This document shows positions 17,517 through 34,400 of a stretch of DNA of 64,000 nucleotides, one piece after another. The position numbers and the translations under genes are program-made. The stretch's first letter is position 1, and each line of letters begins with the position of its first letter. The notes beneath the pieces are model-generated. The model ran no database searches. It had not been told where the DNA came from and was given only the letters and a program-made list of their open reading frames with translations. Source of the DNA: a bacterium (GTDB lineage: Bacteria > Vulcanimicrobiota > Vulcanimicrobiia > Vulcanimicrobiales > Vulcanimicrobiaceae); NCBI GenBank assembly GCA_021794205.1, contig JAJYRH010000001.1, positions 1 through 64,000 on the forward strand. Direction: 5' to 3'.

Positions 17517-17632
17517 TGCTCTGCTCCTTTGCCGACTTTTCGCAAGGAGTCGGCTACCGGTAAAACGCTTCGGGCGGCTCGCGCGGCACGCCCCGAGGGG
17601 AGTCTAACCAAACTCTCAGCGTGTGAAACCGC

Positions 17633-17661
17633 TTGCACTCGGTCGGGGTCTCTGCTAATAT
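17633..17661 (+). promoter_or_regulatory. Sigma70-like promoter of groESL
   Basis: TTGCAC at 17633-17638 and TAATAT at 17656-17661 are separated by exactly 17 bases, a near-consensus vegetative promoter. It lies just upstream of the CIRCE palindrome, so a transcript would start at or inside the operator, which is the usual groE arrangement. Confidence 0.8.
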
Positions 17662-17669
17662 CCAACAGG

Positions 17670-17696
17670 TTGGCACTCAGATGCTAAGAGTGCCAA
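17670..17696. promoter_or_regulatory. CIRCE operator (HrcA site) for groESL
   Basis: A perfect 27-base palindrome, TTGGCACTC-N9-GAGTGCCAA. The known CIRCE consensus is TTAGCACTC-N9-GAGTGCTAA; here both arms carry the same compensated A-to-G change, so symmetry is complete. It sits between the promoter and the groES ribosome binding site (GGAGG at 17720-17724). HrcA repression of groE is therefore expected. The hrcA gene itself is not in the window. Confidence 0.93.
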
Positions 17697-29042: not shown

Positions 29043-30089
29043 CTACGCCCCGGGGTTCAGTAAGACCTTGATGGCGCGGCGCTCGTCCATCGCGGCGTAG
29101 CCCTCGGCGACGCGCGCGAGTGGAATGCGGCTATCGAAGACGCGCCCCGGGTGGATTTGCCCGGCGACGCAGGCCGCCATCAGCGTCTCGATATAGGCGC
29201 GCGCCGGGGCGAGGCCGCCGCGGAGATTGAGGTTTTTGAGAAAAATCGAGCGCAGATCGGGCGTCTTGACGTTATGCGGGACGCCGACGTAGGTAACGGT
29301 GCCGCCCGGGGCGGCGGCGGCGATGGCGAGGTTGAAACTCTCTTCGTTTCCAACCGCCTCGACGATCGAGGGCGCTCCGCCTCCGGTGAGCTCGAGCAGG
29401 CGTTCGAGTGTCTGCGGATCGTGGGAATCGAGGCAATCGTCGGCGCCGAACTCGGCGGCGATCTTCAGCCGTTCGGCGTTATGCCCGACGGCGATCACGC
29501 GCTCGGCGCGATGAACGCGCGCGGCCGAGAGCACGGCGCAGAGGCCGACGGCGCCGTCGCCGATGACGACGACAGGGCCGCCGTTGCCGGCGCCCGCAGT
29601 CGTCGCTCCGTGATGCCCCGTCGCCATGACGTCGCAGAGCGTCGCCGCATCGGCGAGCGTGTCGTCGTTCTCCCGCATCCCTTCGTGCATGACCGCGAGC
29701 GTTCCATCGGCGAACGGTACGCGCACGAACTCGGCTTGACCGCCGTTTGCATCGTCGCCCCAGAAGGTTCCGTGCTCGCATGACGTTTGCAAACCGCGGC
29801 GGCAATAGGCGCAGGTTCCGTCGCTGATCGCGAACGGAGCGATCACCGCATCGCCGGGCCGGAGCGTACGGACGGCGCTGCCGATTTCTTCGACGATGCC
29901 GACGAATTCGTGTCCGGTTCGTTCGCCTGGCTCGCGTTCGACGACGCCGCGATAGAACCAGAGATCGCTGCCGCAGATCGCGGCGCGCGTGACGCGTACG
30001 ATGGCGTCGGTCGCTTCGCGAAGCGACGGGTCGGGGACGGTTTCGAGACGCACGTCGCGCGTGCCGTGGTAAACGGTTGCTTTCATCAT
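29043..30089 (-). CDS. Zinc-dependent alcohol dehydrogenase (MDR family)
   Basis: 348 residues, medium-chain dehydrogenase/reductase. Catalytic zinc ligands are in AICGSDLWFYRG and GERTGHEFVG; the nucleotide fold shows GDGAVGLCAVLSAARV near residue 170. The structural zinc loop reads ISDGTCAYCRRGLQTSC: three cysteines are in place but the first is replaced by Asp, a variation seen in some subfamilies. Its start overlaps the stop of the hydrolase gene upstream (30086-30089). The substrate is unknown; threonine or alcohol dehydrogenase type. Confidence 0.83.
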   Translation of the reverse strand: MMKATVYHGTRDVRLETVPDPSLREATDAIVRVTRAAICGSDLWFYRGVVEREPGERTGHEFVGIVEEIGSAVRTLRPGDAVIAPFAISDGTCAYCRRGLQTSCEHGTFWGDDANGGQAEFVRVPFADGTLAVMHEGMRENDDTLADAATLCDVMATGHHGATTAGAGNGGPVVVIGDGAVGLCAVLSAARVHRAERVIAVGHNAERLKIAAEFGADDCLDSHDPQTLERLLELTGGGAPSIVEAVGNEESFNLAIAAAAPGGTVTYVGVPHNVKTPDLRSIFLKNLNLRGGLAPARAYIETLMAACVAGQIHPGRVFDSRIPLARVAEGYAAMDERRAIKVLLNPGA

Positions 30090-30936: not shown

Positions 30937-31482
30937 ATGCAACCGATTCACGCGCTCGCTCTCCTTCTCGCGTTCGCGCCTCAACAGACGCCGGTCGCGA
31001 TTCCGACGCAGCCGCCGGTGCTCGCCGCACCGCCGCTCGCACCGTTGCCTAGTGATACGTTGAATAACGGCCCGTGCCTCGATTCGCCGCGGGCGGTACC
31101 GCTCGTCCTGCAGGCTCCGGTGACGGTCGGAAACCAGATCGTCCGCATCGATAAGGTCGTCTCGACCGACTCGATGATGCCCGGTGAGGTCATCGGTTTT
31201 CTCTATACGCTCCAGGACGGCACGACGTGGCTCGGTCAGCGCACGCCCGACTATATGTCCGCTGCCGACTCCCGAGCGATCAACCTCGTGCTCGCCGCCT
31301 CGCGGCTCCCCGCCGATACCGAGACCGCTTTCCCGCCGCAGATGCGCTATGGGGTCGCCACGCACTATCGGCAGTTCTTCCCCGTCCAGATCCAGGCGAG
31401 TGCGCTCTCGGCGCTCCGCGTCCGGATCGACCCCTGCGTGGCGTGGCCCTCGGGGCGTCAGCTCCCCGACCCACGCCTCTGA
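30937..31482 (+). CDS. Secreted protein of unknown function
   Basis: 181 residues from the ATG at 30937 (a GTG at 30931 is also possible). A short hydrophobic N-terminus (IHALALLLAFA) then a proline-rich segment suggest export. Mature part: two cysteines, in NNGPCLDSPR and DPCVAWPSG, could pair. No motif recognised. The gene ends five bases before the CIRCE-like element of hsp20-lon. Confidence 0.55.
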   Translation: MQPIHALALLLAFAPQQTPVAIPTQPPVLAAPPLAPLPSDTLNNGPCLDSPRAVPLVLQAPVTVGNQIVRIDKVVSTDSMMPGEVIGFLYTLQDGTTWLGQRTPDYMSAADSRAINLVLAASRLPADTETAFPPQMRYGVATHYRQFFPVQIQASALSALRVRIDPCVAWPSGRQLPDPRL

Positions 31483-31486
31483 CGGC

Positions 31487-31513
31487 TTAGCACTTGACGC
31501 ATCCGACTGCTAA
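31487..31513. promoter_or_regulatory. Imperfect CIRCE element before hsp20-lon
   Basis: The 27 bases read TTAGCACTT-N9-GACTGCTAA. Against the CIRCE consensus TTAGCACTC-N9-GAGTGCTAA, each nine-base arm has one mismatch and the spacing of nine is exact; the outer six bases TTAGCA/TGCTAA are a perfect inverted repeat. TTGACG (31494-31499) and TATGGG (31517-31522), 17 bases apart, could be an overlapping promoter, which would put the operator on the -35. HrcA control of hsp20-lon is therefore likely by inference. Confidence 0.72.
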
Positions 31514-31533
31514 AGGTATGGGTTAAGGGTGCG

Positions 31534-31923
31534 ATGGAGTTTGTAATTCGAGGGCGCTGCGGGCGTTTCGAACCGAATGCCGACGCCTTCCTCGACGAAG
31601 AGCGGGAGGCGCTCGTCGTCACGCTCGAGGTCGCTGGGGTCGCCCCGGAATCGGTACGATTGGCCGTGGAGGCCGACCGTCTGCTCGTCGCCGGGCGGCG
31701 TTTCGATGCGCTGCCGCAGCGCCGCGGTTCGTTCGTCCTCAAAGAGATTGCCTTCGGCGAATTCGGCCGCGAGTTCACCCTCCCCGTTCCGGTCGATCTC
31801 GAGCGCACCTCGGCGACCTATCTGGACGGGCTGCTCTCCATCGTGCTGCCCATCGCAGCGACTGCGTATATTCCGACCACACGTAACGACGTGCGGATCA
31901 TCGTGCAAAGGATCGTCATCTAA
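31534..31923 (+). CDS. Small heat-shock protein (Hsp20/alpha-crystallin)
   Basis: 129 residues. The alpha-crystallin domain is visible: EALVVTLEVAGVAPESVRLAVEADRL, RGSFVLKEIAFGEFGREFTLP and ATYLDGLLSIVLP (the usual A-x-x-x-x-G-v-L-x-i-x-l-P end). Such proteins hold unfolding proteins for refolding. lon follows two bases later, giving a hold-or-degrade pair under the CIRCE-like operator. The N-terminal arm is short. Confidence 0.85.
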   Translation: MEFVIRGRCGRFEPNADAFLDEEREALVVTLEVAGVAPESVRLAVEADRLLVAGRRFDALPQRRGSFVLKEIAFGEFGREFTLPVPVDLERTSATYLDGLLSIVLPIAATAYIPTTRNDVRIIVQRIVI

Positions 31924-31925
31924 TT

Positions 31926-34400
31926 ATGGCCGCGAAAGCGAAACCCATCGTTCCCGCCGGGCTGCTCGGCATTCTGCCGCTGCAGGAAGCCGTGCTCTTC
32001 CCGAACACCGTCATCCCGCTCGCGGTGGTGAAGAAGCCGGGCATTCGTCTCGTCGAAGAAGCGATTCGCGAGGGTCGCCCGATCGGCTTGACCGTGCTCA
32101 AAGATCGCGAGACCGAGAACCCGGGCCCCGACGACGTCGAGCGCGTCGGAACCATCGGCGTCATTCAGAAGATGCTCAAGGTTCCCGACGGCACGCTCCG
32201 TTGCATCGTTGCCGGCCAATCGGTCTTTCGCATCGAGCAATTCACGCAGAGCGATCCCTATTTGGTCGCCGCATATACGGAATTACCCGATAAGACCGTC
32301 GAGAATGAAGCGCGCGTCGCGATGCATCGCAATCTCGCCGGGCTCTTCCAGAAGCTCCTCTCGTATTTGCCGCAGGCACCGCGCGAGATGGAGATGGAAG
32401 TTCAAAATATCACCGACTCCAACGTGCTGACCTATTTCGTCGCATCGACGATGCGCTTGGAGACCGCCGAGCGCCAGGCGCTTCTCGAAGAACGCGATAC
32501 CGCCAAGCGGATGCGCAAGCTTACGATGTTGCTCACCAAGGAGCTCGAGGTCGTCGAGCTCGGGCATAAGATTCAGGGCGATATCCAGCGCGAGATGGAC
32601 AAGAATCAGCGCGAGTTCTACCTGCGCCAGCAGCTGCGCGCCATTCAGGAAGAGCTCGGAGAGATCGATCCGCAGCTCGCCGAGGTGAACGAACTCAAAA
32701 AGAAAATCGACGAAGCGAAGATGCCCGAGGAGGCGCAAAAGGCCGCCGAGCGCGAGCTCGACCGCCTCTCGAAGGTGCCGCAGGCGAGCCCCGAATACAG
32801 CGTCATCCGCACCTATCTCGACTGGCTCGTACAGTTGCCGTGGAACGTGGCGACCACCGATGCCATCGATATTCGCAAAGCGCGAGAGATCCTCGACGAA
32901 GACCATTACGATCTCGAAAAAATCAAGGATCGTATTATCGAATATCTTGCAGTCGGAAAACTCAAGAATCGTTTGAGCGGCCCGATCCTGTGCTTCGTCG
33001 GCCCTCCCGGCGTTGGAAAGACCTCGCTCGGGCAATCGATCGCCCGTGCGATGGGGCGGAAGTTCGTGCGGCTCTCGGTCGGCGGCGTCCGCGACGAAGC
33101 AGAGATTCGCGGCCATCGCCGCACCTATATCGGCGCGATGCCGGGCACGATCGTGCGCGCGATTCGCGATGCCGGTACGCGCAATCCGGTGATGATGATC
33201 GACGAAATCGATAAAGTCGGCTCCGATTTTCGCGGCGATCCGCAATCGGCGCTCTTGGAGGTGCTCGATCCCGAGCAGAACAAGAGCTATCGGGACCACT
33301 ACCTCGATCTTCCGTTCGACTTGAGCCAAGTGCTCTTCGTGTGCACCGCGAACTCACTGGACACTATCTCTCCGCCGCTGCGCGACCGCATGGAGATCAT
33401 CCAACTCTCGGGCTACACCGAGTTCGAGAAACTGCAGATCGCCAAGCGCTATTTGCTGAAGAAGCAGCGCCTCGCAAACGGCGTCAAGGACGGGCAATCG
33501 CAGATCAGCGATACGGCGTTGCGCGCGATCATCAACGACTACACGCGCGAGGCGGGCGTCCGTAATCTCGACCGCGAGATTGGGACGGTCTTCCGTAAAA
33601 TCGCGCGCAAGGTTGCGGAGAACGCAAAATATAAAGCGCGTGTCAAGCCGGAGAGCCTCGTCGAGTATCTGAAGAAGCCGCGCTTCTTCAACGAAGTGAA
33701 GAAACGCGTCGCTTCGGTCGGGGTCGCGACGGGAATGGCCTGGACGCCGGTCGGCGGCGATATTCTCTTCATCGAGACGCAAGTGATGCCGGGGAGCGGC
33801 AAGGTCGTGTTGACCGGGCAGCTCGGCGACGTGATGAAGGAGAGCGCGCAAGCCGCGGTCTCGTTCCTGCGGTCGCGTTCGAACGAACTCGGGCTCGCCG
33901 AAGATTTCTTCGCCAAGCACGACATCCACATTCACGTTCCCGCTGGCGCGACGCCGAAGGACGGCCCATCGGCGGGCATCGCGTTGGTGACGTCGATCGC
34001 ATCGATGCTCACCGGGAACAAAGTCGACCCGAACCTCGCGATGACCGGCGAGATCACGTTGACAGGTCAGGTGCTGCCGATCGGCGGCTTGAAAGAGAAG
34101 GTGCTCGGCGCGCGGCGCGCGGGGATCTCGAAGGTGCTCTTGCCCAAGCGCAACGAGGTCGATCTCGACGATATCCCCGACGAAGTGCGAACGCAGATGA
34201 CGTTCGTATCGGTCGAGGAACTCTCCGAGGTGCTCGCTCACGCGCTCGGTAAACGCATCATCGCTCCGGTGCCGCTCGGCAACGAGAACCTCAAGCGGAA
34301 CGGTATCGTCGTGCCGATGCCCAAGCGCGGCACCGGCAAGCGTTCGGGAGCGGCGCGAGGGCGCACGAAGATCTCGCCGCGTCCGGCCTCGCGCGCCTAA
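31926..34400 (+). CDS. lon: ATP-dependent Lon protease
   Basis: 824 residues, full-length LonA. N-terminal substrate domain ([18 protein letters not shown]), long helical middle, Walker [16 protein letters not shown] near residue 359, Walker B MMIDEIDK near 423, and the C-terminal protease domain with catalytic serine near 682 ([14 protein letters not shown]) and lysine near 725 ([11 protein letters not shown]). The extreme C-terminus has a basic tail ([17 protein letters not shown]) longer than in E. coli. Coupled to hsp20 upstream. Confidence 0.96.

Follow-up and report, generated by a model that had tools for sequence, protein, structure and literature searches.

The window, i.e. the whole stretch of 64,000 nucleotides analysed in this study, comes from an uncultured Eremiobacterota bacterium. 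It contains a small heat shock gene (hsp20) followed by the gene for the ATP-dependent protease Lon, and a palindrome lies in front of the two genes. The features of this region are as follows.

31487..31513, + strand: predicted CIRCE-type HrcA operator, TTAGCACTT-N9-GACTGCTAA, from sequence match and conservation in genus and family
31499..31504, + strand: upstream promoter-like element GCATCC, within the CIRCE spacer; invariant in 10 genus members and part of a family motif
31520..31524, + strand: downstream promoter-like element GGGTT; invariant in 10 genus members and part of a family motif
31525..31529, + strand: candidate ribosome-binding site AAGGG, proposed from the sequence
31534..31923, + strand: hsp20, small heat shock protein of 129 aa (PF00011, E 2.5e-13)
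31926..34400, + strand: lon, ATP-dependent protease La of 824 aa (PF02190, PF00004, PF05362; TIGR00763 over cut-off)

Lon is complete according to TIGR00763. Only 2 nt separate the stop of hsp20 from the start of lon, and co-transcription of the two genes is therefore expected. Hsp20 is 90-98% identical in nine named relatives, all of which are MAGs and three of which are labelled Candidatus Eremiobacterota. Upstream, a reading frame of the same orientation stops at 31482, four bases ahead of the palindrome, and a three-base substitution pattern in genus mates suggests that it is a real gene. A terminator of this upstream gene was considered and rejected, as no terminator-like site was found before hsp20-lon.

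The letters at 31487-31513 are TTAGCACTTGACGCATCCGACTGCTAA. A sequence-only reading of this DNA had described them as agreeing with the CIRCE consensus (TTAGCACTC-N9-GAGTGCTAA) at 16 of 18 arm positions, with a spacer of exactly nine bases and a distance of 20 nt to the hsp20 ATG at 31534, and all of this was borne out on re-reading. The two mismatches are C to T at the ninth base and, in the right arm, G to C. The right half GACTGCTAA, counted here as a mismatch, is common in hrcA's own operators in several genera of the family, so that the only unusual part is the ninth left-arm base. In the 64-kb window just two CIRCE matches occur at three or fewer mismatches, namely the hsp20-lon and groE sites, and dinucleotide shuffles of the window gave a mean of 0.01 such matches. 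The 2.2-Mb assembly contains three of them: groE (C5:17670), hsp20-lon (C5:31487) and fmdB (C23:14313). A reversed-pattern control gave two matches in the same assembly at this threshold; a match of this quality is thus weak by itself, and the argument comes from conservation and not from the bare match. With a matrix trained solely on groE and hrcA operators from this family (30 distinct sites), the hsp20-lon site scored 22.8, second in the window, and the next best position scored 8.4. The value sits slightly under the range of the training operators (23.2-31.3), and none of about 19 million Markov-simulated positions scored as high. The hsp20-lon palindrome is not a chance sequence. It is located before a heat-shock operon, where it overlaps a conserved promoter-like pair.

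Orthologues of hsp20 were found in 92 of 99 genomes of the family, and the best upstream CIRCE match was scored at 90 loci. At every locus with a long enough contig, lon was observed next to hsp20 in the same orientation. Within the genus the arms, the spacing and the 20-nt distance to the ATG are identical in all 10 genomes, own included. Across the family CIRCE-like sites with at least 13 of 18 matches precede hsp20-lon in 63/90 genomes, and the arm-match scores are bimodal, with 13-18 matches in these genomes and 11 or fewer in 27/90. With a threshold of 10 bits, the groE/hrcA-trained matrix detects sites in 61/90 hsp20-lon upstream regions, covering 28 of 35 genera, against 0/90 for reversed controls. 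In a sister family of the same order (f2), all four hsp20-lon operons contain CTRTCACTC-N9-GAGTGCTAA. Conservation before orthologous operons was the check that the sequence-only reading had proposed for its HrcA operator, and that interpretation is supported by these comparisons. The losses are identifiable. The site is lost or eroded in seven genera and in part of an eighth. Genera g3, g17, g20, g21, g32 and g35 have it absent or eroded; in g5 the palindrome is eroded in G009 and G010 and absent in G008, G011, G012 and G019, and g18 keeps a weak 14/18 site under the matrix threshold. Linkage of hsp20 and lon extends to f3, a more distant family, yet no CIRCE was found in any hsp20 upstream region examined there, and CIRCE sites occur elsewhere in all f3 genomes examined for hsp20. 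As the site is missing in several genera and in f3, CIRCE control of hsp20-lon is therefore dispensable. The simplest history consistent with these counts would be a gain in the ancestor of the order and losses afterwards.

Most hsp20 operators have an imperfect left arm, and in most genera the two arms are asymmetric. Asymmetry of this kind, at a site where HrcA binding is predicted, could also be expected if the palindrome were maintained for a different regulator whose site overlaps it. However, a matrix built from groE and hrcA operators alone detects the hsp20-lon site, and its half-site is common to the operators of hrcA itself, so that a regulator other than HrcA is very improbable.

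The promoter-like pair GCATCC-N15-GGGTT belongs, by upstream alignment, to a family-wide ECF-like motif GNAWCC-N15-GKGTY. The strict motif is present in 57/90 hsp20 upstream regions against 0.0009 of shuffled ones, a count which is descriptive because the motif was discovered in the same sequences, and in 0/88 fmdB and 0/24 hrcA upstream regions. The sister family f2 gives independent support: three of four operons there have the strict motif and the fourth is one base off. The sequence-only reading had instead proposed TTGACG-N17-TATGGG as the overlapping promoter. This can be read at 31494-31522, but genus mates have TTAATG for its first box and TACGGG or CCCGGG for its second, a sigma-70 scan did not report it, and it was given up. 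The conserved GCATCC-N15-GGGTT is the better candidate for the hsp20-lon promoter. A sharing of the ECF-like promoter with groE was likewise rejected, as the strict motif is found in 9/29 groE upstream regions, mainly of own genus, and is not general; groE instead has a conserved TTGCAC...TAATAT-like promoter.

CIRCE was found in three registers around the hsp20-lon motif. In 32 genomes of 12 genera it begins 12 bases before the motif; in 17 genomes of 10 genera it begins 13 bases after the motif, and in the sister family f2 this distance is 33 bases. That the fixed register differs between clades indicates more than one event of operator placement or movement, and it makes this promoter a clear natural example of such repeated events. 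At +13, the ninth position of the left CIRCE arm coincides with the first G of the downstream element, and this explains the imperfect left arm there. The registers also bear on the idea that the palindrome has no regulatory role and is either a side effect of the promoter or a chance sequence. The overlapping promoter motif is likewise conserved, and up to three reversed-pattern control matches occur per genome at 3 mismatches, as such an idea would have it. Yet the palindrome takes three different positions around the same promoter, and five g5 genomes in which it is eroded or missing retain the promoter motif upstream of the ATG. A palindrome without regulatory function is hardly credible.

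HrcA (PF01628) was found in 91/99 genomes of the family and in 6/9 genus mates. In relatives the gene is arranged as hrcA-dnaJ-rsmE and has its own CIRCE; in genus mate G035 (hrcA at L138 7040-8161) acs, on the opposite strand, comes first and is followed by hrcA, dnaJ and rsmE, with the CIRCE directly upstream of hrcA. A PF01628 profile search of own assembly gave no match, and the same was true for three of the nine genus mates. This would fit a relic, i.e. an operator lying idle in a species without hrcA. But the 6-kb acs-hrcA-dnaJ-rsmE stretch of relatives found nothing in own assembly beyond one spurious match of 55 bases, and no full-length dnaK was found in it. Because dnaJ, rsmE, acs and dnaK are missing together with hrcA, and because such genes are hardly dispensable and contig breaks at hrcA or close to it occur in several genus mates, the absence is probably a gap in a 90%-complete MAG and not a loss. 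Loss of hrcA in own species is disfavoured for the same reason, and the gene would be expected outside the assembled contigs of own strain. Moreover, the arms are intact at all three own-genome CIRCE sites, without the erosion seen in g5. An idle operator is thus unlikely, though somewhat less so than the other two alternatives. It is, on the other hand, very likely that 31487-31513 is an HrcA operator (CIRCE) which represses the promoter of the two-gene hsp20-lon operon.

Further predicted members of the regulon are groESL, hrcA-dnaJ, a second hsp20 (in genus mates) and a gene for an FmdB zinc-ribbon protein. Two sites were found before the groESL operon.

17632..17658, + strand: second, degenerate CIRCE-like site CTTGCACTC-N9-CTCTGCTAA, from matrix and upstream comparison
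17670..17696, + strand: CIRCE of the groESL operon, TTGGCACTC-N9-GAGTGCCAA, from pattern and matrix match

The sequence-only reading had called the groE CIRCE perfect. It is a perfect palindrome, yet it is two bases off the consensus. The degenerate site lies 38 bases upstream of it and overlaps the likely sigma-70 promoter TTGCAC...TAATAT, and similar sites are present in 28/29 groE upstream regions. A side observation on groES concerns genome G024 of genus g7, which has, besides its own divergent copy, a groES with 98% identity to the genus g1 gene (L273, G024:C104; comparison of L269-L276); either MAG contamination or transfer could account for it.

The CIRCE at C23:14313 in own genome is 18 nt before the FmdB-type gene (TIGR02605, PF09723), and the groE/hrcA-trained matrix detects fmdB operators in 66/88 genomes of 26 genera. 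In these operators TTGAC (-35) is placed inside the CIRCE spacer and is followed by TATACT-like -10 boxes, and by its sequence the fmdB promoter is a plain sigma-70 promoter. The fmdB CIRCE (L003 1228-1527, that is C23:14040-14339; loci L162-L251) is mostly 18-23 nt before the gene. In other genus members a CIRCE also precedes a second, canonical hsp20 followed by a cysD-like gene (L265 1501-1929, G035:C8:37420); no site of this kind was found in own assembly.

In Bacillus subtilis and most bacteria the HrcA/CIRCE regulon consists of groESL and hrcA-grpE-dnaK-dnaJ, and the feedback of GroEL on HrcA is established in B. subtilis. HrcA is active when folded with the help of GroEL and inactive when GroEL is busy, according to Mogk et al. 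(1997) as cited in PMC7737663. By this scheme, in the unstressed cell HrcA, kept active by GroEL, would occupy the palindrome and stop RNA polymerase. Occlusion is the expected mode of repression, with the operator lying over the hsp20-lon promoter: RNA polymerase would be blocked because the operator covers GCATCC in its spacer and a part of the promoter spacer. Under stress, such as heat, misfolded proteins would occupy GroEL and HrcA activity would be lost. Consequently, hsp20 and lon would be released along with groESL, hrcA-dnaJ, the second hsp20 of genus mates and fmdB, which would link chaperonin, DnaJ, holdases and Lon in one circuit. Lon and Hsp20 could in turn lower the load on GroEL, and repression would be restored. 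As the HrcA-type switch is conserved in relatives, one heat-shock repressor probably governs the folding, holding and degrading of proteins jointly. The prediction is that the chaperonin, a holdase and the main protease of quality control are coupled within one feedback loop by a repressor titrated by GroEL. It concerns a little-studied and largely uncultured phylum, and its conservation evidence extends across 28 genera.

Like the regulon of the B. subtilis type, the present one has a repressor of the same family, a palindrome with N9 spacing, groE and hrcA as members, and an operator beside the promoter. It differs from that type in the addition of hsp20-lon, the second hsp20 and fmdB, and in the position of hrcA, which is with dnaJ-rsmE and not with grpE-dnaK. 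The sequence-only reading had anticipated an expanded HrcA regulon, and this stands for own lineage; its parts have precedents elsewhere (PMC5138195, PMC7737663, PMC3179173). HrcA control of lon is known from Mollicutes, where the regulon comprises dnaK, dnaJ, clpB and lon and where CIRCE sites with two or fewer mismatches are treated as functional (PMC5138195, PMC4245973, PMC7737663). In Mycoplasma pneumoniae a rise of the HrcA targets on Lon depletion was reported, in line with the feedback outlined above (PMC7737663). CIRCE controls lon there as it is predicted to do here, but Mollicutes are an unrelated phylum and hsp20 with lon is not mentioned in these papers. For an hsp20-type gene the precedent is hsp16 of Lactobacillus acidophilus, which similarly has a CIRCE in front, although that is a sequence prediction only and without lon (PMC3179173). 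In delta-proteobacteria groESL is the only constant member of the HrcA regulon (PMC545781). No paper describing hsp20-lon or fmdB under HrcA was found among the open-access papers searched, and a search of these for an FmdB-HrcA link also gave none. The fmdB gene acquires a testable connection to protein quality control.

The hsp20-lon promoter has its own parallels. EcfG/ECF stress promoters consist of GGAAC or GCAAC, N16 and CGTT (PMC7083833). GNAWCC-N15-GKGTY resembles them in its upstream box and in a GTT-like downstream box; it departs from them in a spacing about one base longer, in permitting T in the AAC triplet, and in being overlapped by a predicted HrcA operator. An ECF-like stress sigma factor could be reading this promoter. 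We tentatively put forward, with somewhat less than even confidence, that the hsp20-lon promoter is double-keyed across the order, in that its activity requires both the presence of an ECF-like stress sigma factor and the removal of HrcA, that operators were installed at least three times in different registers, and that FmdB was recruited. If so, the FmdB zinc-ribbon protein would be a new part of the chaperone response. A second occurrence in the window lends the motif itself independent support. GCAACC-N15-GGGTT is found on the minus strand at 30122-30097, 7 nt upstream of the ATG that starts a zinc alcohol dehydrogenase gene (29043-30089), and GCAACC-N15-GGGTY is present in 8/8 relatives checked, with a spacer of varying sequence. 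The alcohol dehydrogenase gene and hsp20-lon probably have the same alternative promoter.
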